Assembly: GCF_947241125.1 (NCBI RefSeq)
Contig: NZ_OX365700.1
Span: 1,178,001 to 1,242,000 of the forward strand
Source: Nitrospira tepida
Lineage (GTDB): Bacteria > Nitrospirota > Nitrospiria > Nitrospirales > Nitrospiraceae
DNA: 64,000 nt
Direction of reading: 5' to 3'
Shown: positions 7,063 through 22,144 of the stretch, in pieces
Layout of the letters: each line of letters starts with the position of its first letter
Position numbering within the stretch: the first letter of the stretch is position 1
Position numbers and translations under genes: made by a program
Notes under the pieces: generated by a model
What the model was told of the DNA's origin: nothing
What the model saw: only the letters and a program-made list of their open reading frames with translations
Database searches by the model: none

Positions 7063-8172
7063 ATGGACACGCCATCCACCACGACACAGCCGTCCCCGAT
7101 CGAAAAAGTCGTCCAATTCGTCGATGAGCGGATCGGCCTGCAGAAGTTGCAGGCCAAGATGCTGAACGAACCGGTGCCGGGCGGTTCGCGCTGGGCCTAT
7201 GTGTTCGGGTCGGTGTTGCTCTTCATCTTCATCATGCAGGCCGTCACCGGCGTACTCCTGATGTTCTATTACGTGCCGACGGCGGACCATGCCTACGCCA
7301 GCACACAGTACATCATTCACGAGGTCGATTACGGCTGGTTCCTGTTGAGTTACCATTTCTGGGGCTCGACCGCGATGGTCGTCTGCGTCTTCGCGCACAT
7401 GTCCCAAGTGTTTCTATGGGGCGCCTATAAGAAGCCCCGGGAAATGATCTGGCTGGTCGGCTTGGCCCTGTTCGGCCTCGTCATGGGGTTCGGGTTCACG
7501 GGCTATTTGCTCCCCTGGGACCAGCGGGCCTACTGGGCGACCACAGTGGGCGTGGAGATCATGGACAAGACGCCGATCGTCGGCGACTTCATGGCGCGCT
7601 TTCTGAAAGGCGGCCCGACTCCGGGCCAAATGACCTTAAGCCGGTTCTTCGTCATCCATGTCATGATCCTGCCGGCGCTCCTGATGGGCCTGGCGGGCCT
7701 GCACCTGTTCCTGTTTAGAAAGGCGGGGCCGGCCGGACCGTTCCGCGGCAGCCCCGAGGAGTTGAAGGCCAAGACGGATTACTTCTTTCCCAGGCAGATT
7801 TGGAAGGACATCGTCGCCATGGTGGCGGTATTCTTCACGACTGCCTGCCTGGCGTTCTGGGAGCCGGTCGTCTTGCTCGAAGAAGCCACGCCGGACCCCG
7901 GGGAGTATCATCCGGAACCGGAATGGTATTTTCTGTTTCTCTTCCAGATGCTGCGCCTGAAGATCTTTTCCGGCGAGTTCGGGCAGTTCGTGGCAGCCAC
8001 GGGGTTGCCCGGTCTGTTCATGCTCTTCCTGGCGGCGTTGCCGTTTATCGACCGAGATCCCGAGCGCAATATCTTCAAGCGGCCGCTCGCGCTGATCGGG
8101 TGGCTAGTCGTGATGGGCAGCATCCTGGTGTTCACGGTCTCGGCCATTATCAATCGCGAATTCCTCGAATAA
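7063..8172 (+). CDS. cytochrome b (b6-type, fused with subunit IV-like C-terminus)
   Basis: 369 residues and about eight helices. Heme-b ligands are visible as H98/H112 (HX13H) and H199/H214 (HX14H); the X14 spacing in the second pair is the b6 pattern. The quinol-site motif PEWY is at 286-289, in the part that corresponds to subunit IV in split systems. The gene encodes the quinol-oxidising core of complex III, between the Rieske gene and a lineage-specific membrane protein. The first ATG is accepted; spacing to the Rieske stop is 17 bp. Confidence 0.92.
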   Translation: MDTPSTTTQPSPIEKVVQFVDERIGLQKLQAKMLNEPVPGGSRWAYVFGSVLLFIFIMQAVTGVLLMFYYVPTADHAYASTQYIIHEVDYGWFLLSYHFWGSTAMVVCVFAHMSQVFLWGAYKKPREMIWLVGLALFGLVMGFGFTGYLLPWDQRAYWATTVGVEIMDKTPIVGDFMARFLKGGPTPGQMTLSRFFVIHVMILPALLMGLAGLHLFLFRKAGPAGPFRGSPEELKAKTDYFFPRQIWKDIVAMVAVFFTTACLAFWEPVVLLEEATPDPGEYHPEPEWYFLFLFQMLRLKIFSGEFGQFVAATGLPGLFMLFLAALPFIDRDPERNIFKRPLALIGWLVVMGSILVFTVSAIINREFLE

Positions 8173-8188
8173 CCAGAGCACAGATCTC

Positions 8189-9193
8189 ATGTCCTCAATG
8201 AAGCTTGCCCTTCACGTCCTCTGGTCGGCCTGTTGGACCGGACTGCCAGCCAAGCTGGGCCTGGCCCTGCTCATGATGGCCATGGGCAGCATGCACCTTG
8301 AACACATGATGGGCGTCGCGTTCCTCTTTCTGTTGACCACGCCCGTGTCCCTGCTTTCCGTGCCGGCGTTGCAGGGGTTGGCCGACCTTCATTTGGGAGA
8401 AGGCGCCGGCCTCGGCATCCTCTTTGTTCTTTGCATTCCCATCGACATGTGGGCCGTCGGCCTGGCCGCCCGCACGGTCTTCATCGAGCGATTGAAGGTC
8501 GAGCCGCAAGGATCGTTTGGGGTCCGGCTCTGGGGCCTCCTTGTCCTAGCCGGCGGCTTCTATGTGACCCTCCTGTGGCTGATCGAAGGGCTCGTGACCG
8601 GGATCGGCAAGGATCTGGCGCACTGGTTCATGGAATTGGAGATGATGAAGGGCCTGCCGGTCGCGGAGCGGATCGGGGTCGAGCTGATGATCTGGGGCTC
8701 GATCTCCACCATCTCGCTGGTGATTCTGCTGGCCGTCGGATTGAAGATCGCCGGCGCGATTATTCAACGGGAAGCGGCCAAGGCGGCGCCCTTGAGCGAG
8801 TCCTATCAGCACCTGGTGACCCGCTGGGACCTCATGCGCATCCCGGCCGATCAAACCTTGATGCTGACCTCGGTGACCGCCGCCGGCGTCTTGCTGATCT
8901 TCGTCTTCTGGGGAGCGATGCCGGTGACGACCCCGCATCCCCATCAGGATTATAAGAAGCCGGAGGTGAAGGCCGCGCCACATGTCAAACCGGCTGACCG
9001 TATTGCCAAGGGTGAAAAAGTCCTGGCGCAGGTGGAATCCCAAGTCGTCGCGCTGGAAGCCAGGCAGGCGGAGCTGGAAGCGGAAAAACAAAAGGGAAAG
9101 CCGAAGCCGCAGGCAAAGGAAAAGGCGAGCGCGAAATCCGACGGGGCGAAGGGGCCGGCCCAGCCTGCCGCGCCGCAAGCGGCCAAGCCGTAA
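8189..9193 (+). CDS. polytopic membrane protein of the respiratory locus
   Basis: 334 residues, function not recognised. About five to six hydrophobic helices span residues 1-250. A long Lys/Ala/Pro-rich hydrophilic tail follows (EKVLAQVESQVVALEARQAE, then KPKPQAKEKASAKSD), probably partly coiled coil and partly disordered. His residues in the membrane part (MHLEHMM, DLHLGEG) could bind heme but match no motif I know. It starts 16 bp after cytochrome b and precedes the second bd-like gene, so it is probably an accessory subunit of the same complex. Confidence 0.7.
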   Translation: MSSMKLALHVLWSACWTGLPAKLGLALLMMAMGSMHLEHMMGVAFLFLLTTPVSLLSVPALQGLADLHLGEGAGLGILFVLCIPIDMWAVGLAARTVFIERLKVEPQGSFGVRLWGLLVLAGGFYVTLLWLIEGLVTGIGKDLAHWFMELEMMKGLPVAERIGVELMIWGSISTISLVILLAVGLKIAGAIIQREAAKAAPLSESYQHLVTRWDLMRIPADQTLMLTSVTAAGVLLIFVFWGAMPVTTPHPHQDYKKPEVKAAPHVKPADRIAKGEKVLAQVESQVVALEARQAELEAEKQKGKPKPQAKEKASAKSDGAKGPAQPAAPQAAKP

Positions 9194-9221
9194 GGCGCCG
9201 GCCAAGCAAGGGAGATCAGCC

Positions 9222-11102
9222 ATGAACCGATATCTCGACGATCTCAAGCAGGCGTTACGCAACACGCGCCCGACGGGGTGGCTGGGTACGGCCGTGGTGC
9301 TGCTCGGCGCGTTCGTGCTGTTTCCGGCTCTGGGACTGGCTCAAGAGGGCGGGGCGGCTTCCGCGCAAGTCGCCTATCGGGATATTCCTGGCATCGGCAG
9401 CCGGAACATCATTTGGATCATCGCCCAGTTGCACCTTCTGCTGGCGGGCTTCGTGCTCGGCGTCCCGATCTTCGCATGGGTCTGCGAGATCGTCGGCTGG
9501 AAGGGAGGCGACAAGCGCTACGACAAGCTGGCGAAAGAGTTTACCAAGCTGCTGACCTCTTCCTACGCGACTACGGCATTGTTCGGGGGCATTCTCCTGT
9601 TCATGCTCATCGGCTTCTATCCAAAGCTGATGAATTACCTGACCGACATCTTCTTCCCCTCCTTTGTCGTCTATTGTCTCCTGTTCCTGCTCGAAACCGC
9701 GACGCTGTATCTCTATTGGTACGGGTGGGACGCCATGTCGGAAGGCGGAGCCAAGACCTTCCATGTGTTCCTGGGATTCCTGCTCAACGTCTTCGCCTTC
9801 TTCATCATGATCGTGCCGAACTCGTGGGCGACGTTCCAAGCCAGCCCGGTAGTGATTTCCGAAGGATCGGACCTGGCCAGGGCCTGGGCCGCCACCTGGA
9901 ATCCGACCTGGTGGCCGGTCAATATCCACCGGCTCATCGCCAACGTCGTGCTCGGCGGCTACATCTGCGGCGCTTATGCCGGTGTTCGGTACCTGTCGGC
10001 CAAGACCCCGGACGAGCGCAACCATTACGACTGGATGGGGTACGTCGGCAACTTCATCGGCGTGTTCGGCCTGCTGCCGCTGCCCTTCGCCGGCTACTGG
10101 TTGATGCGCGAAATTTATCAGTACAACCAGCAGATGGGCATCACGCTCATGGGCGGGTTCTTGTCCTGGCTGTTCATCCTGCAAGCCATGTTGATCGGGG
10201 TCCTGTTCCTGGGCTCGAACTATTATTTCTGGATGGGCATCACGCACCGGATTCAAGGCTCGGAGGTGCAGTATCGCAAGCCGATCATGGCGATGCTCAT
10301 CATCCTGTTGCTCTGTCTCGGCGTCTGGATGACACCGCACTCGCTGGTCGCCAGCTTGGAAGAGGCCAGAAAGATGGGAGGCACGCACCATCCGTTGCTC
10401 GGCGTCTTCGGCGTGATGAGCGCAAAGATGACCGTGGCGAACTTGATGATCCTCGTGACCTTCATGAGCTTCATCATGTACTGGCGCGCCGGCAAGCAGG
10501 AAACGGCGACCTGGGCAAAGCTTGCGAAAGCGGTCATGAACGCGGTGCTGTTCATCGCGGCTATTGCCGTCATCATTCTCGGCGTCTGGGGCTATTTCGT
10601 TCCCGCGATCGTTCGCATCAACTATTTCTCGACCTCGCAGGTGCTGATCGTGCTGTTTGTCATGTTGACGATCACGCCGCTCACCGCGCTGCTCTTGAAG
10701 AGCGCCCGCACGACCACGGAAATGGTCTGGGGACAGATGCCGCCTCGGGCCGGCTACGCGCTGGTGCTCAATGCGGTAATGGTGATCCTGCTCATGACGC
10801 TCATGGGCTATGCGCGGTCGTCGTCGCGCGTCCATTGGCACGTCTACGGCGTCATGCGCGACTCCTCGCAATATGCCTATTCGCCGGCCTTGGGCTATGC
10901 CGCGGCCTTCATGGCGTTGAACACGTTCTTGTTCTGCCTGCTCGTTTCCTTCATCTTCTGGGTGGCGACCATGGGGGACAAGGCCAAGGAGAAGGGTGGC
11001 CACGAAGAACCCAAGGGCAAAATGGTGCCGGGCGCCATTCCGGCCATGGCGGGCGGATCGCCGGCCTTGGATAGCATGAGTGCGTCGCCCCGGGAGAAGT
11101 GA
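9222..11102 (+). CDS. cytochrome bd-like (CydA-type) membrane protein II
   Basis: 626 residues, paralogous to the protein at 3526-5229: both share RNIIW/RTAVW-IVAQLH near the N-terminus, a YDKLAKE/YDRLAKE loop, YLYWYGWDAM/YLYFYTWDAM and NIHRL/NLHRL. Candidate heme ligands are H71 and H236. A signal-like N-terminus ends at LGLAQ. GGAG at 9211 supports the ATG at 9222. No CydB partner is present. Having two CydA-type paralogues around bc genes suggests a composite quinol-oxidising complex, or alternative modules for forward and reverse electron flow. This is inference. Confidence 0.82.
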   Translation: MNRYLDDLKQALRNTRPTGWLGTAVVLLGAFVLFPALGLAQEGGAASAQVAYRDIPGIGSRNIIWIIAQLHLLLAGFVLGVPIFAWVCEIVGWKGGDKRYDKLAKEFTKLLTSSYATTALFGGILLFMLIGFYPKLMNYLTDIFFPSFVVYCLLFLLETATLYLYWYGWDAMSEGGAKTFHVFLGFLLNVFAFFIMIVPNSWATFQASPVVISEGSDLARAWAATWNPTWWPVNIHRLIANVVLGGYICGAYAGVRYLSAKTPDERNHYDWMGYVGNFIGVFGLLPLPFAGYWLMREIYQYNQQMGITLMGGFLSWLFILQAMLIGVLFLGSNYYFWMGITHRIQGSEVQYRKPIMAMLIILLLCLGVWMTPHSLVASLEEARKMGGTHHPLLGVFGVMSAKMTVANLMILVTFMSFIMYWRAGKQETATWAKLAKAVMNAVLFIAAIAVIILGVWGYFVPAIVRINYFSTSQVLIVLFVMLTITPLTALLLKSARTTTEMVWGQMPPRAGYALVLNAVMVILLMTLMGYARSSSRVHWHVYGVMRDSSQYAYSPALGYAAAFMALNTFLFCLLVSFIFWVATMGDKAKEKGGHEEPKGKMVPGAIPAMAGGSPALDSMSASPREK

Positions 11103-11128
11103 AGACAGCTTGAAAGGGACGTCCGACT

Positions 11129-11758
11129 ATGAGTGAAGTCGCGCTGCTTCAGTTGATCGGATTGGCGATCGTCGGAAGCGGGATTGCCATTCTCCTCTTT
11201 ATCCCGGCGAGATTCGTCCGGGTCATGGGCTTCGTCATGATCGTGCTCGGCCTCTTTGCGCTGGTCGCCCTGGCCGTCCCGCAGATGGCGTCATTGCCGC
11301 CGGCGGAAGAGAAGATCGACCTGGCGACGATCAAGACGCCGGCCGACATGGCCGCCATCGGCCAGAAGATCTTCTTCAGCAAGGGCCAATGCGCCCTTTG
11401 CCATTCGATCGGTCCGAGCGAGTCAGCCCGTTGTCCGGATCTCAAGGGCATCGGCGCGAAACTGTCCAAGGAATTCATGTATGAGAGCCTGACCCAGCCG
11501 CAGGCCTATATCTATCTCGATTATCGCCATGAGGGGCCGCCGAAGGAGTATCCGGCGCGGATGCCCTACATCAACAAGAACCCGATCGGCCTGTCGAAAA
11601 ACGAAATCCTGTCGGTCATTGCCTTCTTGCAGCAGATGAGCGGCGAGCCGATCACGGTGAGCACGGCCGATCTCGACACGACGAGCCCGCAGCCCAACGG
11701 CCAGCCGACCCAAAAAGCCGAAGCTTCTCAACTGGCGAAGGCGGCGAGCCTCAAATAA
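11129..11758 (+). CDS. membrane-anchored monoheme cytochrome c
   Basis: 209 residues. Two N-terminal helices (LLQLIGLAIVGSGIAILLF and VMGFVMIVLGLFALVALAV) anchor a C-terminal heme domain with CALCH (C88-H92). ARMPYI supplies a probable distal Met. A low-complexity Gln/Thr/Ala tail ends the protein. It lies 26 bp after bd-like II and is likely an electron carrier of that module. Confidence 0.83.
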   Translation: MSEVALLQLIGLAIVGSGIAILLFIPARFVRVMGFVMIVLGLFALVALAVPQMASLPPAEEKIDLATIKTPADMAAIGQKIFFSKGQCALCHSIGPSESARCPDLKGIGAKLSKEFMYESLTQPQAYIYLDYRHEGPPKEYPARMPYINKNPIGLSKNEILSVIAFLQQMSGEPITVSTADLDTTSPQPNGQPTQKAEASQLAKAASLK

Positions 11759-11785
11759 CGAGCGGAGAGAACGGGAGGAAGGACC

Positions 11786-12502
11786 ATGAAAGGGGGAGTT
11801 CTCACTAAGGCGCTGATTCTGATGGTCGCCGTGTGGGCGTTCCTGAAGCTGGGCATGCCGCTGTTTACGGCTCCGCTCCCCAACAGCTTGATTTTCTTGT
11901 ATCTGATGCTGACCCTGTCCGGGATCGTCATTTTCGGCACCTTGAGCGGCGCGTCGAAGGACGCCTTCTGGGGGCCGATCTCGCGCTTCATCACCGGCGA
12001 CAACCTCGGCGCGTTGCAGGGAGCCCGCTTGGCGGTGCTGATCCTGTTTCCGCTCTTGATCGGTTGGCAGACTTACGGGAGCACGGCGCCGAGCGATCAA
12101 CCGCCTGCCGAAAACCGCACCATACACCCGGCGCCTCCCGGCGAGTACACAGGCCTGGCGAATCCGGTGCCCAACACGCCGGAGAACATCATGACGGGGA
12201 AGGGGCTCTATGCGGCCTTCTGTTCGCCCTGCCACGGCGGCAATTTCGACGGCAAGGGCGTGGCCGCCAAGGGATTCAACCCGCCGCCGGCCAATTTCGC
12301 CGATCCGACCACGATTGCGATGTTGCAGGAGAGCTATCTCTTCTGGCGGATCAAAAAGGGCGGGGTCGGGCTGCCGATCGAGGGCATGCCCTGGAAATCG
12401 GCGATGCCGCGCTGGGAGGTCGAGCTGCCGGACGAATGGATTTGGAAGATTATTATGGGTGAATACGACGGGGCGCATCAAAAGCCGAGAACGTGGGAGT
12501 GA
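11786..12502 (+). CDS. membrane-anchored monoheme cytochrome c
   Basis: 238 residues. Hydrophobic helices lie near residues 8-27, 33-52 and 77-95, followed by a cytochrome c domain with CSPCH (C146-H150). Candidate distal Met residues are in EGMPWKSAMP. It has a ribosome-binding site (GGAGGAAGGACC just before the ATG). It is co-directional with the preceding cytochrome and the NxrC-like gene, so the three may form one electron-transfer subcomplex. Confidence 0.83.
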   Translation: MKGGVLTKALILMVAVWAFLKLGMPLFTAPLPNSLIFLYLMLTLSGIVIFGTLSGASKDAFWGPISRFITGDNLGALQGARLAVLILFPLLIGWQTYGSTAPSDQPPAENRTIHPAPPGEYTGLANPVPNTPENIMTGKGLYAAFCSPCHGGNFDGKGVAAKGFNPPPANFADPTTIAMLQESYLFWRIKKGGVGLPIEGMPWKSAMPRWEVELPDEWIWKIIMGEYDGAHQKPRTWE

Positions 12503-12544
12503 CCCTCCGTCGGACACACTGAAGACTGGGTGAGAGAGGCCGCT

Positions 12545-13375
12545 ATGTCGCAATGCAGCGCATCCTGGGGACGACCGGTGACAATCATAGGCGGGGGGCT
12601 GCTCGGCCTGATGCTCATGGCAACCGCTGCCGTGGCCCAGGAGAGCGTCGCCGTCCGGGCCAATATGGTGAAGGGCAATCTGCCGGTGGACGATCCCACG
12701 GCCGCCGCCTGGACCCAGGCGCCGGCCTCAGAGTTTCCGATGTCTCCCCAGGTGCATTGGAAAGAGCGCATTCAGGCGGTGACGGTGAACAGCGTGAAGG
12801 TGCGGAGCCTGCACGACGGGACGAACATCGCCATCATGCTCGAATACGAAGATCCCACGCAGGACCCGGACGATGCGGCGGCCCTGGAGTTCATGGTCGG
12901 CGACAAGAAGGCGCATTTCGCCCACGGCCAGCCCATGTTGCAGGTCGAAGGCGGTCCGGTGAACATTTGGTACTGGAAGAACAAAGATGGCAAGGCGGTC
13001 GACATGACGGCCAAGGGCTTCGGAACGCTGAGGCCGCAGGCCGACCAGGACGTGAAGGCCAAGGGGGTGTATGACAACGGCAAGTGGCGGGTCGTCTTCT
13101 CTCGAGCCCTCACCACGGGCAATGTGGAAGAAGACACGCAGATCAAGCCGGGCGAGTTCATCAACATTGCGTTTGCGGTCTGGGACGGCATCAAGACGGA
13201 AAGCGGCGAAGTGAAGGAGAAAGGATCCCAGAAGGCCGTCTCCTCCTGGTGGTATTTCCGCGCCGAGCCGCCGGCGGATTACTCAGCCTATCTGTACGCG
13301 CTCATGGCGATGGGCATCGCCGCCGCCTTCCAGTTTGTCCTGATCCGAAAGCTCAAGAAGGGAGCCTCGGCATGA
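12545..13375 (+). CDS. ethylbenzene-dehydrogenase/NxrC-like heme-binding protein
   Basis: 276 residues: signal peptide (TAAVAQ), a periplasmic domain with the layout of DMSO-reductase-family gamma subunits that bind heme b (VHWKERIQAVTVNSVKVRSL; NIAIMLEYEDPTQDPDDAAA; NIWYWK), and one C-terminal helix with a basic tail (IRKLKKG). In nitrite-oxidising Nitrospira, gamma-subunit candidates of nitrite oxidoreductase belong to this family. No nxrA or nxrB gene is in this window, so a role inside this respiratory complex is equally possible. The ATG at 12545 is preferred over a GTG at 12530; GAGAGG lies 6 bases upstream. Its stop overlaps the next gene's start (ATGA). Confidence 0.8.
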   Translation: MSQCSASWGRPVTIIGGGLLGLMLMATAAVAQESVAVRANMVKGNLPVDDPTAAAWTQAPASEFPMSPQVHWKERIQAVTVNSVKVRSLHDGTNIAIMLEYEDPTQDPDDAAALEFMVGDKKAHFAHGQPMLQVEGGPVNIWYWKNKDGKAVDMTAKGFGTLRPQADQDVKAKGVYDNGKWRVVFSRALTTGNVEEDTQIKPGEFINIAFAVWDGIKTESGEVKEKGSQKAVSSWWYFRAEPPADYSAYLYALMAMGIAAAFQFVLIRKLKKGASA

Positions 13376-14385
13376 TCGCACAGGCACGTTGGCGAAGGAT
13401 GGTCGTGGGCGGCGCCGTGCTCGGCGTGGTGGCGGCGAGCAGCATCGTCGGCTGCGCGCTGTTCCAGAGCGAGCAGGTGTCGAAGGGCCGGGAACTGTAC
13501 AACCACTACTGCTCCCACTGTCACGGCGAAAACGGCCGGCAGAACGAAGGCTACAACTGGGCGTCGATGCCGGACCCCAAGCCGAAGGACCTGTCGAACA
13601 AGTCCGAAATGTCCACCTTCAAGGATGAAGAAATCTTCAATACGATCTCGCGGGACATGAAGGACACCAGCCCCGAAGGCGGAGACAAGATCGGAGACGA
13701 TGAGTTCGCCGTGCCGACCATGCCGACGTTCAAGTACACCCTGTCCGAAGAGGAGATCTGGTCGATCGTCGCCTACGTCCGCACGTTGCACGGGATGAAG
13801 CTGACCTACAACGTCGAAGAGCGCAAGAAGGAAATCAAAGACGCCTTGCAGGCCGCGCAAGCCAAGTATGATGAAGCCAAGGCGGCCTACGAAGCGGCGG
13901 AAAAGAAGGCCAACGAAGAGGCGGAGCAAAAGGGCAAGGAGGTCGACGACGACGCCTATGCCAAAGAGGCCGCCGCCTTGGCCGCCGCGAAAAAGGCGCT
14001 GGACGAGGCGAAGAACGTCGATGAGCGGTTTGCCAAGCGCCCGAAATTCCCCCAGGTGGCGAGGCCGGACCTCGCGATGAAACCCGATGCCGCCGAAAAA
14101 TCGACCGAGCTTGGAAAGCGGCTCTACACCAACAAATACGGCTGCAACGCCTGCCACGCGGTGAACCAGGAGGGAGGCAAGGTCGGGCCGGCGCTGGATC
14201 GTGCCGGGTTCCGGCTGAACCCGAGCTGGGTCTACCGCTGGATCAAGTATCCGCAGGCCATGAAGCCGGAGAGCCGAATGCCCAACCTCGGCATCAGCGA
14301 TCAGGACGCCAAGGCCATCAGCCTGTATCTCAGCACGTTGCGAGCGCCGCGAGAGGCTCAAGTCGCCGATAAGCCCGCGAGCTGA
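13372..14385 (+). CDS. diheme cytochrome c lipoprotein with central coiled coil
   Basis: 337 residues. The lipobox (SIVGC) predicts a lipid anchor. Two cytochrome c domains carry CSHCH (C47-H51) and CNACH (C258-H262). They are separated by about 80 residues of strongly helical Ala/Lys/Glu sequence (KIKDAL-type heptads from about residue 145 to 220) that could act as a rigid spacer or dimerisation arm. It is the last gene of the respiratory run and is translationally coupled to the NxrC-like gene by a 4-bp overlap. Confidence 0.85.
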   Translation: MIAQARWRRMVVGGAVLGVVAASSIVGCALFQSEQVSKGRELYNHYCSHCHGENGRQNEGYNWASMPDPKPKDLSNKSEMSTFKDEEIFNTISRDMKDTSPEGGDKIGDDEFAVPTMPTFKYTLSEEEIWSIVAYVRTLHGMKLTYNVEERKKEIKDALQAAQAKYDEAKAAYEAAEKKANEEAEQKGKEVDDDAYAKEAAALAAAKKALDEAKNVDERFAKRPKFPQVARPDLAMKPDAAEKSTELGKRLYTNKYGCNACHAVNQEGGKVGPALDRAGFRLNPSWVYRWIKYPQAMKPESRMPNLGISDQDAKAISLYLSTLRAPREAQVADKPAS

Positions 14386-14426: not shown

Positions 14427-14498
14427 AGGATGCTGGAAAAGAGCGTTGGTTCACCCTCCAGGTGAACGTCCCCGGCCAGCGAGCCGTCTCAGCATCCT
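14427..14498. terminator. nested hairpin between convergent genes
   Basis: Outer arms AGGATGCTG (14427-14435) and CAGCATCCT (14490-14498) enclose an inner perfect hairpin GTTCACC/GGTGAAC (14449-14455 and 14461-14467). It sits between the end of the respiratory run (+) and the 3' end of ubiA (-), overlapping the ubiA stop by 2 bases. No clear T-run follows, so it may act as a bidirectional Rho-independent-like or processing structure. Confidence 0.4.
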
Positions 14499-15426
14499 AC
14501 CAATAGCCTGCGAGGATCCCACCCAGAATCGCCAGCCCGAACCACACGTGCTGGCGGAAGAATCGAAAGGCCAGGGCCGGCGGGATTGGCTCACGGACCT
14601 GCCACGTTTGGATGACCATGCCGATGGCGACGCCGGCGAGGATGGCGTAGAACGCCGGCCCGATCTGTTCGGCCCATCCGGCGAGCCCCAAGAATCCCAG
14701 CATCAGCCCCTCGAACCCAAGAATCGCCAGCCACGCGGCCTCTCCGAACAGCAGCGCCGAGGACTTGACCCCGATCTTTTGATCATCGATGCGGTCTTGC
14801 AGCGCATAGACCGTGTCGTACGCCACGGCCCAGCAGACGGTGCTGCCGAACAGCAACCAGGCCGGCAGTTCAAGCCTGTGCCGGGCGGCGGCCCAGGCCA
14901 TCACCACCGCCCAACCGAACGCCACCCCCAGCACGGCCTGGGGCAGGGAGACGAACCGCTTCGCGTAGGGATAGCCGGCGGCCAGCGCCACCGCGAACGG
15001 ACTTAGCAGCCACGTGATGGGCGGCAGCCGTAAGAGCAGGAGGACCGCCAGGCTGAGCAGGACAAGGACCGCAATCCACGCGTCGCGCACCGTGAGGCTC
15101 CCGGCCGCCAGCGGGCGGGATTTCGTGCGGGCCACGTGACGATCGACGTCACGGTCAGCCAGGTCGTTGAGGATCACCCCCGCGCTCCGCATGAGAAAAG
15201 CGCCGGCCAGGAACAGGCAGACCAATTCCCCGTCCGGACGGCCGTGGGACGCAAGGGCAAGCGACCAGAGCGAGGGCAGGGCCAGCAACAAGGTGCCCGT
15301 TTGGGATCGGAGCCGGATCAGGCGCGCCAGGTGGGTCCAACGGGAGCGGTCCGGGCTGTCATGCGCGGATGTCTCGCCGGATATTCGGGCCGAGGCGTCG
15401 GATGCGCGTGAACGGGGGGCGGTCAC
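14497..15426 (-). CDS. ubiA: UbiA-family prenyltransferase
   Basis: 309 residues with about eight helices, an integral membrane enzyme that prenylates an aromatic acceptor in quinone or related biosynthesis. Both Asp-rich motifs are present: NDLADRDVDRHVARTKSRPL and AYDTVYALQDRIDDQKIGVK, the second characteristic of 4-hydroxybenzoate polyprenyltransferases. About 28 hydrophilic residues precede the family N-terminus, so the true start may be further in, though no other ATG is well placed. The substrate cannot be decided here, and ubiA is used in the family sense. Confidence 0.85.
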   Translation of the reverse strand: MTAPRSRASDASARISGETSAHDSPDRSRWTHLARLIRLRSQTGTLLLALPSLWSLALASHGRPDGELVCLFLAGAFLMRSAGVILNDLADRDVDRHVARTKSRPLAAGSLTVRDAWIAVLVLLSLAVLLLLRLPPITWLLSPFAVALAAGYPYAKRFVSLPQAVLGVAFGWAVVMAWAAARHRLELPAWLLFGSTVCWAVAYDTVYALQDRIDDQKIGVKSSALLFGEAAWLAILGFEGLMLGFLGLAGWAEQIGPAFYAILAGVAIGMVIQTWQVREPIPPALAFRFFRQHVWFGLAILGGILAGYW

Positions 15427-15596: not shown

Positions 15597-16949
15597 ATGA
15601 TGGCTCCAAGGCTCGTGGTCATCACGATCAGTCTGTGGATGCTGGCCGGATGCCAGTCTGCGTCGACTCGCGACAGCGCGTCAGGCTCGGTGGAGACACA
15701 GACCGTTCTCCAGTCTCGGGCGTCTGCGGAGACGAATGAACGGAGTCTCGAACCGGAGTCGGCCGGGCCCTCCGCTACCCTGTCCTTTCGCGCAATGCTC
15801 CGGGATGAGAACCGCAACCACGTGCTGGAGCAGGGCGAGCAGATGACGTTGGAGGTCGAAATCACCAACCATGGCCCAGCTCCCGTATCGGACCTCGAAA
15901 TCCGCTATAGCGGCAAGGGACGGATCGCGGAGCAATTCACCCAACCTCTGCGCGTGGCGGCATTGTCGGCGGGGGAACGCACGCGGCTGGTCGCGACCGC
16001 CAAGGCGCCTCCGGTCAAGCAAGTGGAACAGGGGGAATTGACGGTTGAATTGGTGAGCGGAGACCATATACAAATCCCGTCGCCCAAGACGTTCATGGTG
16101 GCGGTACGGCCCGGATCGGCGGATCAGATCGAAGTGCTCTCGGTGGACGTCGACCAAATTCCCAATAAGCCGCGCGGGACCGGACAGCCGCAAGCAATCG
16201 GGATCGCCATCGGGATCGGGAATTACCGGGATGCGGGTCAGGCCGGCGGTCGCTATGCCGTCCATGACGCGGAGATCACCGCCGCCTATTGGCGCACGGT
16301 GGTCGGGGTGCCGGCATCGCAACTCAAGCTGCTCACCGGGCGGCGCGCGCTGCGCGACGATTTCGTGGATACGTTCGAGACTTGGCTGCCCCAACAGGTG
16401 AAACCGGGGTCGCTCGTCTATCTCTATGTGTCCGGCAAGGCCTCGGTTCATCCGACGACGGGGGCGGTGGAGTTGGCGCCCTACGACGCGCTGCCGTCCT
16501 CGACGGAGCGGCACTATCCGCTGCGGCGCCTCCACGCGGCCTTGGCGAGGCTGCCGATCGAACGGGCGCTGGTGTTTTTGGAGTTGTCCCTTGAACCGTC
16601 GAGCGGCGGCTTAGCGCAGAATCCGTCGCCGCCTCGGTGGGAGACGCCCGATCTCACGGCCCATTCCGGCAAGATTGTGCAGGTAATCGGCAATCAGGCG
16701 CTGCAGGAGGCGCATGATTATCCGCTCGGCCGGCATGGGCTCTTCACCTATCACCTGTTGAAAGGCTTGGCCGGAGGGGCGGACCTGAAGAAGGACGGAC
16801 GCGTGTCGCTCGGTGAATTGTGCCGGTACGTGAAGGAGCAGGTGCAGGACGTGGCCCGCACGGAATTCGGCAATCAGCAGGAACCCACCTGCCGGCCGTC
16901 GCCGGCGGACGACGCGCTGGCGCAGGTCGTGCTCACGCGCCTGAAATGA
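15597..16949 (+). CDS. caspase-fold (C14-like) lipoprotein lacking the catalytic dyad
   Basis: 450 residues. The lipobox (MLAGC) follows a short hydrophobic segment, which fixes the start at 15597 or 15600 rather than the upstream open frame. Residues ~60-185 resemble a CARDB/NEW3-like beta-sandwich. Residues ~200-450 follow the bacterial metacaspase pattern: AIGIGNY, YAVHDAEITAAYW, a VYLYVSG strand, and a FTYHLLKGL...DGRVSLGEL C-terminal module. The usual SGHG has become SGKA (Lys281 for His), and the Cys strand reads FLELSLEPSSGG (Ser331 where Cys is expected). It is therefore probably a non-catalytic pseudopeptidase, perhaps a scaffold or binding protein at the outer membrane. The partner is unknown. 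Confidence 0.78.
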   Translation: MMAPRLVVITISLWMLAGCQSASTRDSASGSVETQTVLQSRASAETNERSLEPESAGPSATLSFRAMLRDENRNHVLEQGEQMTLEVEITNHGPAPVSDLEIRYSGKGRIAEQFTQPLRVAALSAGERTRLVATAKAPPVKQVEQGELTVELVSGDHIQIPSPKTFMVAVRPGSADQIEVLSVDVDQIPNKPRGTGQPQAIGIAIGIGNYRDAGQAGGRYAVHDAEITAAYWRTVVGVPASQLKLLTGRRALRDDFVDTFETWLPQQVKPGSLVYLYVSGKASVHPTTGAVELAPYDALPSSTERHYPLRRLHAALARLPIERALVFLELSLEPSSGGLAQNPSPPRWETPDLTAHSGKIVQVIGNQALQEAHDYPLGRHGLFTYHLLKGLAGGADLKKDGRVSLGELCRYVKEQVQDVARTEFGNQQEPTCRPSPADDALAQVVLTRLK

Positions 16950-17022: not shown

Positions 17023-17098
17023 GCCGGCGTAGCTCAGTTGGTAGAGCAGCGGTTTCGTAAACCGCAGGTCGCTGGTTCGATCCCAGTCGCCGGCTCCA
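17023..17098 (+). tRNA. tRNA-Thr (anticodon CGT)
   Basis: A full cloverleaf can be drawn: acceptor GCCGGCG/CGCCGGC (17023-17029, 17088-17094), D arm GCTC...GAGC, anticodon stem GCGGT/ACCGC with loop TTCGTAA (anticodon CGT at 17056-17058), and T arm GCTGG/CCAGT with TTCGATC. The discriminator is T95, and CCA is encoded at 17096-17098. A structured repeat array begins two bases after the CCA. Confidence 0.97.
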
Positions 17099-17100
17099 TA

Positions 17101-17585
17101 CCAACCTTCGGTTGTACCAGCGGCTCATCGGGCGAAGCCCCTCCCCATTGACGCCGCTGGAGAAAACCGCAAGTGGCTTGTTCTCCTGATCCAACCTTCG
17201 GTTGTGCCGCTGACCTATTTTGAAACTTATCGTAACGAAGGTCAGCAGAGAAATACCTCCAGTGATTGTTTCTTTTGATCCAACCTTCGTGTGAGCCGGG
17301 CGCTCTTCATCGGTGTTCCGTATATGACGCGCCCGGAGAAAACCGCCAGTAGTCTTGTTGTTAGATCCGCACTTCGTGAGTCCCGCCGGCTCTTCAGGCG
17401 CAGCCTTCTTCATGGACGCCGGCGGAGAAACCCCTCCAAGGATTCCCGTTACTAACCTTCATGTGTACCAGCGGCTCATCGGGCGTAGCCCATCCTCAAT
17501 AGCTCCGCTGAAGAAAACCACCAGTGATTGTTTGAACCAACCTTCGGTTGAACCGGCGGTTCATCAGGCTGGCGCGTAACCGTCC
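17101..17585 (+). repeat. tandem array of ~84-90 bp structured repeats, units 1-6
   Basis: Units begin with CCAACCTTCGGTTG or a close variant at about 17101, 17191, 17280, 17367, 17453 and 17537. Each has three parts. First comes a small CAACC/GGTTG hairpin. Next is a larger hairpin whose arms differ between units but stay complementary: CCAGCGGC/GCCGCTGG, GCTGACC/GGTCAGC, CCGGGCGC/GCGCCCGG, CGCCGGC/GCCGGCG, CAGCGG/CCGCTG. Last is a conserved GAGAAAACC...CCAGTGATTGTT linker. No sustained reading frame is present. The array starts directly behind tRNA-Thr and may be co-transcribed with it. Function unknown; the changing but paired stems argue for selection on structure. Confidence 0.75.
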
Positions 17586-17789
17586 GGTCATTGGCTCTCA
17601 AGCGGCCTTGCACCCTGGTGTAGCAACATGTTCTGGAAGGGCACTCTGTGAGCTTCTTTTTGCCCAGATGGCGGCAGTTTGGTATGGTTAATGAAGCGCA
17701 TCACCGATGTTGGGCCATGCACCGCTCATCTCTTTGCTTGAGAAGTGAGTTGGAGTGATCCACATCGCGGATAAATCGGAGGGACACGT

Positions 17790-18068
17790 ATGGAAACGAC
17801 TCACAAAGTGACCAAAGTGACGCAGGTCCTTGTCGCCATAATCACTGCAAGTGCGTGTTTGGGCTGCGCCGAAGCGAAGATCGGTATTGGCCCGTTCAAA
17901 GCCGCATCGGTGGAAGTCGGACCGGGGGGCGTTGAGGCAAAAGGCCCCAGCGCGGGGCCATTCAAGGCCACGTCAGCGGAGGTCGGACCAGGCGGTGCCG
18001 AGGCGAAGGGTCCCAGCGCAGGACCTGTAGGAAACACGAAGGCGAAATCACAACCGAAGGAGAAATAA
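17790..18068 (+). CDS. small lipoprotein with internal duplication
   Basis: 92 residues. A hydrophobic leader ends in a lipobox (CLGC), giving a mature protein of about 67 residues made of two copies of a GPFKA(A/T)S(V/A)EVGPGG(V/A)EAKGPSAGP-type repeat and a Lys-rich tail. The GGAGG-containing stretch just upstream fits a ribosome-binding site. It lies between two blocks of the structured DNA repeats. Function not recognised; Gly/Pro-rich low-complexity lipoproteins are often cell-surface spacers. Confidence 0.7.
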   Translation: METTHKVTKVTQVLVAIITASACLGCAEAKIGIGPFKAASVEVGPGGVEAKGPSAGPFKATSAEVGPGGAEAKGPSAGPVGNTKAKSQPKEK

Positions 18069-18086
18069 TCGAGCGGAGTGCCGAAT

Positions 18087-18260
18087 CCAACCTCCATTTC
18101 TACACCAGCGGCTCGTCGGGCGCAGCTCTTCCCCATTGGCGCCGCTACAGAGAACTGCCAGTGATTCTTCCCGGTTGATCCAACCTTCGGTTGAACCGCT
18201 CGCCGATTTATCGACGGCGAACGGAGAAATCCTCCCGTAGGCTTCACTTCCAATCCAGTC
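18087..18260 (+). repeat. structured repeats, units 7-8 plus a partial unit
   Basis: Same family as the block at 17101: units start at 18087 and 18180 (93 bp apart), with a degenerate start near 18250. Variable paired stems include CAGCGGC/GCCGCT and TCGCCG/CGGCGA. The linker CCAGTGATTCTT is conserved in unit 7. The two blocks are separated by about 500 bp containing the small lipoprotein gene. Confidence 0.65.
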
Positions 18261-18338
18261 TTCTGGTGAGGAGCCAGAGAACGCCTTGTTCTATTGAGTG
18301 CCAGGTTCTTGTTGGCCCGAAATGTGCCTGGAAGCGGC

Positions 18339-18367
18339 TTGACTTGCTTGTTTTCGACAGGTACGTT
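18339..18367 (+). promoter_or_regulatory. candidate promoter for the restriction-modification operon
   Basis: TTGACT (18339-18344) and TACGTT (18362-18367) with a 17-base spacer lie about 60 bases before hsdM. hsdM itself has no obvious Shine-Dalgarno. Confidence 0.3.
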
Positions 18368-18429
18368 CGCCGGCGGGTGCTTCCTCTCGGGATGTTGAGT
18401 CCGACCTCCATGGCTGCATAGTCTGTGAC

Positions 18430-20925
18430 ATGACTAAGCTCACCCTCGGCCAACTCTCGGGTCTTTTATTCCGCGCCTGCGACGATTTGCGCGGGAACAT
18501 GGATGCATCCGAATACAAGGAATACATCTTCGGCATGCTCTTCCTGAAACGGATGAGCGATCTGTTCGATCAGGAGCGCGAGCAGCTTGCCAAAGATCTC
18601 AAGGCGAGAGGGATGTCCGAGAGCCAAATTGCCGCGCAACTTGCCAATCCGGATAAATACACCTTCTTCGTTCCCGAAAATGCCCATTGGTCGAAGATTC
18701 GCCACCTCAAGACCAACGTCGGGACCGGCCTCAACAAGGCGCTCGAAGCGTTGGAAGACGCGAACGTCGATCCGCTGCAGGACGTGCTCAAGCACATCAA
18801 CTTCAACCGCAAGATCGGTCAGCGGACGCTGGACGACGACACGCTTGCCAATTTCGTCCAGAACTTCGAGAAGATTCCGCTCCGCGACGAGAACTTCGAG
18901 TTTCCCGACCTGCTTGGCGCAGCCTACGAATATCTGATCAAGTTTTTCGCCGACTCGGCGGGAAAGAAGGCGGGAGAGTTCTACACCCCGGCGGAAGTGG
19001 TGCGGACTCTGGTCGAGATCGTCGATCCCCAGCCCGGTATGAGCGTGTACGACCCGACGTGCGGGTCGGGCGGCATGCTCATTCAGACCCGGGACTATAT
19101 CCGGGAATGCGGCGGCGACCCGCGGGACCTCTCGCTGTATGGGCAAGAGAGCATCGGGACCACCTGGTCCATCTGTAAGATGAACATGCTCCTCCACGGC
19201 ATCGCCCATGCCGACATCCGCCAGGAAGACACGATTCGCCGTCCCCAGCACAAGGACGAGAACAACGAACTCAAGCGCTACGACCGTGTGCTGGCCAATC
19301 CGCCCTTCAGCCAGAACTACATCAAAAAGGATATCGAGTATCCGGGCCGCTTCGCCGTCTGGATGCCGGAGAAGGGCAAGAAGGCCGATCTGATGTTTGT
19401 CCAGCACATGCTGGCCGTGCTCAAGGCGGAAGGGAAGATGGCCACCATCATGCCGCACGGCGTCCTGTTTCGGGGCGGGGAGGAGAAGGAAGCCCGGAAA
19501 CACTTCATCGAACGCGGCTGGTTGGAGGCCGTCATCGGCCTGCCGGCCGGCCTGTTCTACGGCACAGGCATTCCGGCCTGCGTCCTGGTGATGAACAAGC
19601 AAGGAGCGGCCGACCGCAAGCATGTCTTCTTCATCAATGCCGACCGGGAATATCGCGAGGGGAAGGCGCAGAACTTCCTCCGTCCGGAAGACATCTCGAA
19701 AATCGTCCACGTGTATCGGGAGCGGAAGGATATCGAAGGCTATGCGCGTCTCGTCCCGGTGAGCGAGATCGAAGCCGAGGACTACAACTGCAATATCCGC
19801 CGCTATGTGGACAACGCGCCGCCGCCGGAACCGCACGACGTGCGGGCGCATCTGCAGGGCGGCGTGCCCGTGAGCGAAATCGACGCCCTCGCCCGTTTTT
19901 GGAACAACTATCCCGGCCTCCGCGAGCGGGTCTTCGTTCCACGCGTCAATAGCGGCCCTCTCCCTCAGGGAGAGGGCAAGGGTGAGGGGCTCTATGCCGA
20001 TTTCGCTCCCGCCGTCGCCGACCTCCGCGCACTCGCCGAATTGGTGAAGAGCGATCCAGGCGTGGCCAAAGCTCGTGCGCGCTTTCTCGACATGCTGGAG
20101 TCCTGGTGGAAAGAGCAGCTCCCGCTCATTGAAGTCCTTGCGCCGACAAACGGCCAGAAAGGCAACGTCTATGAGCTGCGGAGCAGGCTCCTGGCCAGTG
20201 CGACCAAGGCCTTTGCGAATCAGACGCTACTGAATGAGCATCAGATTCGCGGCGCCCTGGCCAGCTACTTCGAGTTCTTCAAGCCGGAGTTCAAATCCAT
20301 CGCATTCAGCGGGTGGGGGCCGGAACTCGTTCCGGATGACGAAATTCTCCAGAGCCAGTTCCCCGACATCCTCGTCGAGATGGAGCAGAAGCGGAGGCGC
20401 TTGGCGGAATTGTCCGGCCTATTCGCGGCAGCCGACGATGATGACTATGATGATGCCAACGACACGGGTGTGCTGCCCGACGAGGAGGTAAAGACCCTGA
20501 AAGCCGACATCAAGGAAGCCAGGGCCCAGGCCAAGTTAGCGAAGAAAGAAAAGCGGGATCAAGCAGAGTTCCACGCCCGCGCCGAGTCGGCCGAGACACG
20601 GCTGGCCCGTCACAAGGCGCTGGAAGATGAAGCCAAGCAGTTGAAGGCCGACCTGCGTGCGATGGAAAAAAGGGAAGAAGAACTCGTGGCCGCCGCCCGA
20701 GAGAAGATCGACCGCAACGAGGCCCGCCGCGTGATCCTCGACCGCCTCCATCGTATTCTCGTTCAGACCTATGAAGGCTACCTCCGCGCCGACCAACGAG
20801 CCTGCACCGCCGCACTGGAAAATCTGTACGCAAAGTACGCCGTGACGGCCAAAGCGATCGAGGCGAAGCGGGACGCCGAGGCGGCGAAGCTGAAGAAGTT
20901 TCTGGAAGAGTTGGGATATGAGTGA
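18430..20925 (+). CDS. hsdM: type I restriction-modification system, methyltransferase subunit HsdM
   Basis: 831-residue N6-adenine methyltransferase. The N-terminal HsdM helical domain ([20 protein letters not shown]) is followed by the SAM-binding motif I (DPTCGSGG from D208) and the catalytic NPPF (N290-F293). It is much longer than the usual ~500 residues: the C-terminal ~330 residues include coiled-coil segments ([20 protein letters not shown]) and an acidic stretch ([13 protein letters not shown]). Residues around 510-520 ([11 protein letters not shown]) are encoded by a DNA palindrome that looks like an inserted repeat. It overlaps hsdS by 8 bp. Together with HsdS it forms the modification enzyme and with HsdR the restriction complex. 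Confidence 0.95.
19956..19976. repeat. perfect 10-bp-arm palindrome inside hsdM
   Basis: CCCTCTCCCT, one base, then AGGGAGAGGG, followed by GCAAGGGTGAGGGG. This word is typical of REP-like palindromes scattered in many bacterial genomes and is read through in frame as [11 protein letters not shown]. It sits between blocks that look like continuous HsdM sequence, so it is probably an in-frame insertion. Confidence 0.7.
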
Positions 20926-22144
20926 GGGCTGGCGAGAAACACCTCTTAGTGAGTTGGCTTCAATTACGATGGGCCAATCGCCACAATCCTCGTGCATCAA
21001 CACCGGAGAGCGTGGTTTGCCCTTTCTTCAAGGCTGTGCGGAGTTCGGCAAGAGGGTACCAGCCGCCAAGCTTCACTGCTCTCCGCCGCTTCGCGTAGCG
21101 AAATCAGGATCAGTTTTAATGAGCGTCCGAGCACCCGTTGGAACAACCAACTTTGCGGATATGGACTATTGCATCGGGCGCGGGCTTGGAGCAGTGTCCG
21201 CTAAGCAAGACGTTGCCGATAACATTTTCCTGCTTCACGCCATAGAACAGAATGTTGGCTTTCTGCACCGGCGTAGTCAGGGATCGACATTCCTGGCTAT
21301 TGGGTCAAAGGATTTGTCTGCCCTTCCAGTGCCTTCATTGGCTCTTGGAATGCAGCGCCGCATCGCCGAAATCCTTTCGACGGTGGACGAGGCGATTGAG
21401 CAGACGGAGGCGCTGATTGCGAAGTATCAGCAAATTAAGGCTGGGCTGATGCACGACCTCTTCACCCGCGGCGTCACGCCTGACGGTCGACTCCGTCACA
21501 CCCGCGTCGAAGCGCCCCACCTTTACAAAGAGTCTCCCCTCGGCTGGATTCCGAAGGAATGGGAAGTGGTTCGGCTTGATATGGTTTCTGAGGTTGACCG
21601 CGGAAAATTCACAGTCAGGCCAAGAAATGATCCTCGGTTCTACGGCGGACAATACCCCTTTATACAAACAGGTGATGTCGCGTTTGCTGGAGGGCGAACG
21701 CTTAAAAGCTACGCTCAAAGCCTTAATGAGCTTGGATTGTCAGTGAGCAAGTTATTCCCTCCGGGCACAATCATGGTCACAATTGCAGCCAATATTGCTG
21801 ATACGTGCATCCTTGGGATGCCGATGTGTGCGCCCGATAGCCTTGTGGGGGTTCAGCCCAAGACGCGAGAGGATGCGAGGTTTATTGAACTCAGCATACG
21901 GCGGCGAAAATCCTGGTTGGAGTCTCGCGCTCCTCAGACGGCACAGAGAAATATCAACCTTGAAGACCTGCGCCCGTTAATAATTCCGTGGCCTAAGGGG
22001 TGGGAGCGATCGCGGATTTCTGAGATATACGAAACACAGGATTCTGCGATAAGAGCTTGCGAAGAGCAGCTTGCGAAACTCCAGAAAGAAAAGCAGGGCC
22101 TCATGCACGACCTCCTTTCTGGAAGGGTGAGGGTGGATGGGTGA
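20918..22144 (+). CDS. hsdS: type I restriction-modification system, specificity subunit HsdS
   Basis: 408 residues with the two-half HsdS plan: TRD1 (about 1-145), a helical spacer ending [16 protein letters not shown]2 (about 200-345) and a second helix ending [13 protein letters not shown]. The two conserved helices set the distance between half-sites of a bipartite target. The recognition sequence cannot be predicted from this sequence alone. The start overlaps the hsdM stop by 8 bp. Confidence 0.94.

Follow-up and report, generated by a model that had tools for sequence, protein, structure and literature searches.

At 15597..16949 on the plus strand of the window, i.e. the whole stretch of 64,000 nucleotides from Nitrospira tepida analyzed here, lies the gene of a putative lipoprotein (P0001) whose predicted caspase fold lacks both catalytic residues. 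The loss of the His-Cys dyad is common to every sampled ortholog, and the gene is under purifying selection. With a probability of roughly 0.55, we read P0001 as an envelope lipoprotein of the Nitrospiraceae in which the caspase domain, formerly a protease, now serves as a binding module that captures a partner in the old cleft. Pseudo-orthocaspases as such are already known; new here are the Arg/Ser pair at the catalytic positions, the shared loss, and, in most relatives, the fusion to an LptE-like domain.

Domain organization and predicted localization

The open reading frame translates to 450 amino acids plus stop over exactly the span that the original prediction had given; ATG codons at 15597 and 15600 are both possible starts. 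Its product consists of a signal peptide with the lipobox LAGC (15597..15653; read by eye), whose Cys19 (15651-15653) is the putative lipid-attachment site, roughly 40 linker residues, a beta domain of CARDB/Ig-like type (residues 60-172; 15774..16112), and an alpha/beta domain of caspase fold (residues 196-450; 16182..16946), the latter delimited by predicted structure, fold search and profile comparison. All these features, and the single residues given below, lie on the plus strand. A lipobox and a CARDB-like domain ahead of the caspase part had been proposed from the sequence; the lipobox is recovered here, and the domain is assigned as CARDB/Ig-like. The match of P0001 itself to CARDB (PF07705) is sub-threshold, with 18.5 bits against a curated cut-off of 22.7 in the Pfam search; the model predicts strands of high pLDDT in this region, the profile comparison agrees, and CARDB is found in 30 of 66 full-length orthologs at E <= 0.01.

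The lipobox cysteine is invariant in all 66 full-length orthologs. In P0001 it is followed by Gln, not Asp; by the rule established for E. coli, Gln rather than Asp after the lipid-bearing cysteine favors the outer membrane. The only other cysteines of the protein are Cys409 (16821..16823) and Cys432 (16890..16892). Both are present in 57 of the 66 full-length orthologs, neither in four, and only one of them in five; a disulfide between the two is probable from this co-occurrence, as would be expected outside the cytoplasm. The proposed outer-membrane or surface location of P0001 itself is deduced from the lipobox.

Caspase fold

The AlphaFold2 model of P0001 (71 sequences) has a mean pLDDT of 83.2; values of at least 90 are reached by 286 of its 450 residues. 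A Foldseek search with this model retrieved MALT1 as the best match (3v4o, E 1.6e-10) and metacaspases as well. Superposition with VIA-align places the predicted fold among caspases and paracaspases: the MALT1 paracaspase 3uo8_C gives a Z-score of 23.3 (2.8 Å rmsd over 218 residues), Arabidopsis metacaspase 4 a Z-score of 22.0, and the bacterial protein GSU0716 from Geobacter a Z-score of 20.3 at 21% identity. We regard the caspase fold of P0001, as modeled, as secure. The metacaspase scaffold had been called well kept in the original prediction, which agrees with the predicted structure and with the Pfam caspase matches (PF00656) of the relatives: these reach 22 of 66 full-length orthologs at E <= 0.01. 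P0001 by sequence alone has no match to PF00656, and searches of PDB sequences with P0001 or with the ortholog alignment (A2) found no caspase. Where these sequence searches failed, the kinship emerged from the fold search and from a profile of 13 relatives with intact dyad, which aligns with the profile of 71 rows over 390 columns (E 9.6e-80) and with the yeast metacaspase Yca1 at GHG and DSC. MALT1 and the metacaspases Yca1, AtMCA4 and AtMCA9 thus share the predicted fold of P0001; they differ in being active enzymes, in having about 15% identity to it, and in their other accompanying domains.

Orthologs and selection

Genome contigs were searched with alignment A1 as query, and the best 80 of 109 relatives were kept; with P0001 alone as query, the contig search yielded no relative. 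The records of the 80 loci are named as Nitrospira, Nitrospiraceae or Nitrospirae, and almost all are MAGs; N. defluvii is included, and one record is titled Nitrosospira. Removal of loci with at least 92% identity to a kept one reduced the set from 80 to 70, so that alignment A2 has 71 rows with P0001; four loci without an N-terminal part in the compared stretch (L056, L096, L100, L112) were removed before alignment A3. Every ortholog pair with more than 80% identity has a dN/dS ratio between 0.07 and 0.27 (Nei-Gojobori counts), and on these values gene decay was rejected for the ortholog group. Within the Nitrospiraceae, 171 of 175 genomes contain a match at E <= 1e-3, and strong matches (best E 2.9e-74 or lower) were counted by eye in 141 of the 175; among the matches listed for these genomes, none contains a stop codon. 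In the sample of the phylum, 202 of 395 genomes have a match at E <= 1e-5.

Loss of the catalytic dyad

According to the profile alignment with the 13 intact relatives, Lys281 (16437..16439) faces the His of GHG, and Ser331 (16587..16589) the Cys of DSCFSG. The original prediction had noted that the His strand ends in SGKA (residues 279-282) instead of SGHG, and that Ser replaces Cys in LELSLEPSSGG, whose LELSLEP begins at residue 328; both assignments hold. Across the 71 rows, position 281 is occupied by Arg (66), Asn (3), Lys (1) or Ser (1), and position 331 by Ser (64), Thr (5) or Ala (2). His occurs at the former in 0 of 71 rows and Cys at the latter in 0 of 71, which is far beyond chance, and the loss seen in P0001 is accordingly conserved among its orthologs. 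Because columns 281 and 331 are more conserved (0.93 and 0.90) than the average of the domain (0.63), the old active site is constrained rather than decaying.

An annotation or sequencing error behind the missing dyad was rejected, as 70 orthologs agree. Another His/Cys pair was sought in the sequence, and no substitute cysteine was found; Cys409 and Cys432 were considered as replacements for the catalytic Cys and rejected, since they likely form a disulfide. H380, the sole His that is invariant in the domain, is not a replacement base either, because the intact relatives carry H380 alongside their catalytic His. That P0001 is not a protease, as had been suggested beforehand, is strongly inferred from the modeled caspase fold and from the dyad loss conserved in the orthologs.

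Phylogeny of the subfamily

The maximum-likelihood tree is based on 65 caspase domains, whose rows were selected manually among the available loci. L166, being truncated, was left out, as were L111 and L113, which were judged to be genes already represented by L159 and L158. The topology divides 39 dead rows from 25 intact rows, mostly from other Nitrospirota, with a branch support of 100/99. The 39 dead rows comprise the orthologs of P0001, the f3 relatives with Asn or Ser at the His site and Ser or Ala at the Cys site, the paralogous group B, and the order-level family f2 together with a protein from the N. tepida genome itself (L004). One further dead row, the TPR protein L002, lies outside the 39 and has lost its Cys separately. 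The tree cannot be rooted from within, and the direction from intact to dead is adopted because known caspases possess the His-Cys dyad. On this premise, the catalytic Cys was likely lost just once, at the root of the subfamily formed by the 39 dead rows. The His is kept, and Cys alone lost, in L146 (group B), in several f2 proteins and in L004; hence, the His went later or more than once, and the dyad may have been lost in two steps, with the His lost repeatedly. Intact caspases exist in the same family and order too (L156:1327-2373 in G002, L181 in G440), so the shared loss concerns the subfamily and not the taxon.

Group B (L145-L157, Nitrospiraceae) consists of dead paralogs that mostly have Gln at the His site, and its Cys site varies freely between Thr, Met, Ala, Lys, Ile and Gly, unlike the constrained Arg/Ser group of P0001. 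Family searches found no member of group B in the N. tepida genome.

The intact proteins L161-L165 and L167 from other Nitrospirota combine CARDB/Ig and caspase domains, as P0001 does, and they contribute to the profile of 13 intact rows described above, but they have kept GHG and DSCFSG and have different N-terminal parts, which in L164 and L165 contain WD40-like repeats as read by eye. Intact caspases of other Nitrospirota also stand in tandem arrays of two to four genes (L161-L163, L169), some with doubled CARDB domains.

The LptE-like N-terminal domain

On the N-terminal side, the full-length orthologs possess an additional domain, some 180 residues long, in which two cysteines are invariant (66/66 each). 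As modeled for the N. defluvii protein, this part resembles 5tse (E 8e-6) and 7rxu (E 1.3e-5), which we take to be LptE lipoproteins. The likeness to LptE comes from Foldseek; VIA-align listed no row for the domain, and none of the 66 orthologs matches PF04390 at E <= 0.01. A profile of the domain finds all three f3 proteins, all 13 members of group B and seven of the eight f2 proteins in the tree. No intact protein of the scan matched it, including L161-L165 and L167, and it missed the N-terminal parts of L004 and L183. In the f2 protein L193, the LptE-like and CARDB parts match, but the caspase part does not. P0001 differs from the LptE lipoproteins and from most of its relatives by the absence of this domain, which is also absent from its sister in G006 (L006, L198) and from L056. 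The rest of the N. tepida genome yielded no copy; a separate PF04390 protein (canonical LptE) is present. Probably, the gain of the domain roughly coincided with the catalytic loss, and the branch of P0001 shed it again later.

Substrate pocket

Both acidic positions of the substrate pocket are retained. The first, Asp224 (16266..16268), aligns to the acid of the metacaspase C-x-N-D motif and is Asp in all 71 rows; the second, Glu329 (16581..16583), is Asp in 63 rows and Glu in eight. According to a passage in PMC6426788, Asp95 and Asp211 of TbMC2 accommodate basic substrate residues; through the C-x-N-D and D-x-C motifs, these would correspond to residues 224 and 329 of P0001. Retention of the acids is not automatic, since the first one is missing from all eight rows of the order-level family f2. 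The kept pocket alone is no proof of binding, because group B, with its variable Cys site, has the acids as well; the retained acids may be structural.

The best-surviving alternative to a binding cleft is that the protein might plug itself: Arg281 or Lys281, at the old His position, would fold into the acidic pocket and mimic the side chain of a basic substrate residue, so that the cleft is closed and the domain forms a rigid block with its binding surfaces elsewhere. A basic residue at 281 is almost fixed (67 rows with Arg or Lys) while both acids are kept in every row; group B mostly has Gln there. However, the acids are also present in the 4 of 71 rows with Asn or Ser at 281 and in group B, and we consider this explanation possible but rather unlikely.

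Other caspase-fold proteins in the genome

Searches with PF00656 and the family profiles reveal four caspase-fold proteins in the N. tepida genome: P0001, L004, L002 and one with an intact dyad. L004 (G000:C1:4142841-4144022, plus strand) is a second exported pseudo-caspase, in which the His is kept (VGHT) and Ser stands in place of the Cys; its affinity in the tree is to the order-level f2 proteins and not to group B of the Nitrospiraceae. L002 (also L197; G000:C1:2850877-2851557, plus strand) has TPR-like repeats as judged by eye, a kept His, and Pro in place of the Cys. The intact metacaspase (L196:7148-8008, minus strand; PF00656 match at G000:C1:4126192) has 286 amino acids with GHG and DCCHSG.

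The intact metacaspase adjoins, within L196:3936-8008 (minus strand), a protein of 1038 amino acids with an apparent alpha/beta-hydrolase part and an apparently intact CHAT protease domain; both domain names are our presumptive assignments. The pair of metacaspase and CHAT-like protein could be a two-gene conflict or defense module.

These homologs bear on the idea that P0001 regulates an active caspase, in that the dead domain would pair with a live one and tune its activity. The model for such a role is c-FLIP, an animal pseudo-caspase that is a cytosolic partner of caspase-8 and, like P0001, has a dead caspase domain. The literature offers parallels: passages of PMC3501461 describe dead caspase homologs of animals as regulators, and according to a passage in PMC7889975, deletion of a pseudo-orthocaspase made Synechocystis more tolerant of oxidative stress. 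But in N. tepida the sole caspase found with an intact dyad has no visible signal sequence, and the three caspase-fold proteins with an export-like N-terminal sequence are all dead; hence, the PF00656 and family searches found no exported active caspase that P0001 could regulate. Such a c-FLIP-like role seems improbable.

Proposed function

The remaining alternatives fare worse. Residual or different catalysis, for instance with Ser331 as the nucleophile, would agree with the 64 Ser and five Thr among 71 rows at this position, but the base position holds Arg, Lys, Asn or Ser and in no row His, two rows have Ala at 331, and H380, being shared with the intact relatives, offers no new base; we consider this very improbable. 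That the gene is a passive leftover in decay, as the missing dyad and N-terminal domain might suggest, is hardly credible in view of the low dN/dS ratios, the absence of stop codons among the matches listed, and the matches of some kind in nearly all genomes of the family.

In the preferred reading of P0001 as a non-catalytic binding protein, the lipid on Cys19 would tether it to the outer membrane, and the stalk would be formed by the CARDB/Ig domain. The caspase domain would hold a partner uncleaved in the former substrate cleft; a peptide or loop that bears Arg or Lys is the likeliest candidate. The LptE-like domain of most relatives may dock the protein to an envelope partner; the lineage of N. 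tepida, having dropped this domain, would rely on the lipid anchor alone. For the cleft as a reader of basic residues, we see about even odds against other non-catalytic roles. More speculatively still, and in our opinion doubtful in its full form, an envelope caspase in the lineage of Nitrospira and its relatives would have lost its dyad once, at about the time of its fusion to the LptE-like outer-membrane module. The three-domain product would then have spread to near-universal occurrence in the envelope of nitrite oxidizers and comammox bacteria, where it would read Arg- or Lys-bearing peptides or protein termini via the old pocket, e.g. as an envelope-stress sensor or an assembly checkpoint.

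The closest known counterparts are the bacterial pseudo-orthocaspases, defined by Klemencic et al. 2019, 90% of which occur in Alphaproteobacteria and Cyanobacteria according to passages of PMC6426788. As described there, they have a p20 fold in which His and Cys are replaced and the two pocket acids kept, as in P0001. Those of the Cyanobacteria have mainly Tyr-Ser or Tyr-Asn (same passages), whereas the P0001 family has Arg/Lys-Ser and no Tyr; it further differs in being a lipoprotein with CARDB/Ig and, in most relatives, the LptE-like domain. The main text of PMC6426788 contains no word beginning with Nitrospira. A passage in PMC3501461 states that the dyad is kept in only 57% of Nitrospirae metacaspases, compared with 84% across bacteria; proteins of the P0001 family are not named in its passages on Nitrospirae metacaspases, nor did the titles and abstract beginnings among the literature matches listed contain anything on this family. 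The portions of PMC6426788 cited here tie bacterial pseudo-caspases mainly to phototrophs; the P0001 family adds a putatively envelope-anchored form from a globally important lineage of nitrifiers. The clear split from catalytic relatives, the existence of intact sister proteins and the kept pocket make the purpose of a dead caspase testable by binding and structure work.

Genomic neighborhood

The gene has a conserved place in the genomes. Divergently upstream lies the gene of a UbiA-type prenyltransferase (14497..15426, minus strand; TIGR01474 over cut-off), which is found in 73 of the 77 loci whose upstream sequence spans 600 nt or more; it was not detected at L046, L047, L055 and L061, where it may be masked by a long overlapping ORF. 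Further upstream is a cluster of cytochrome b, cytochrome c and ethylbenzene-dehydrogenase-like heme b genes (7063..14385, plus strand), whose cytochrome c gene occurs in 64 of the 65 loci that extend 2500 nt or more in this direction. Downstream follows a tRNA-Thr(CGT) gene (17023..17098, plus strand), present in 40 of 41 scanned loci, on the minus strand at L111; L043, scanned over 1317 bases downstream, is the sole locus without it. The window thus has the same order of ubiA, the P0001 gene and tRNA-Thr as the other loci, and this conserved place shows orthology, from which a functional link to respiration does not follow.

After the tRNA-Thr(CGT), a type I restriction-modification module (within 17023-22144) includes hsdM (18430-20925) and an apparent specificity subunit (20918-22144). 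A gene belonging to one integrase-like cluster stands near the P0001 ortholog in 18 of 81 compared loci, mostly just downstream, so the tRNA-Thr looks like a recurrent insertion site of islands.
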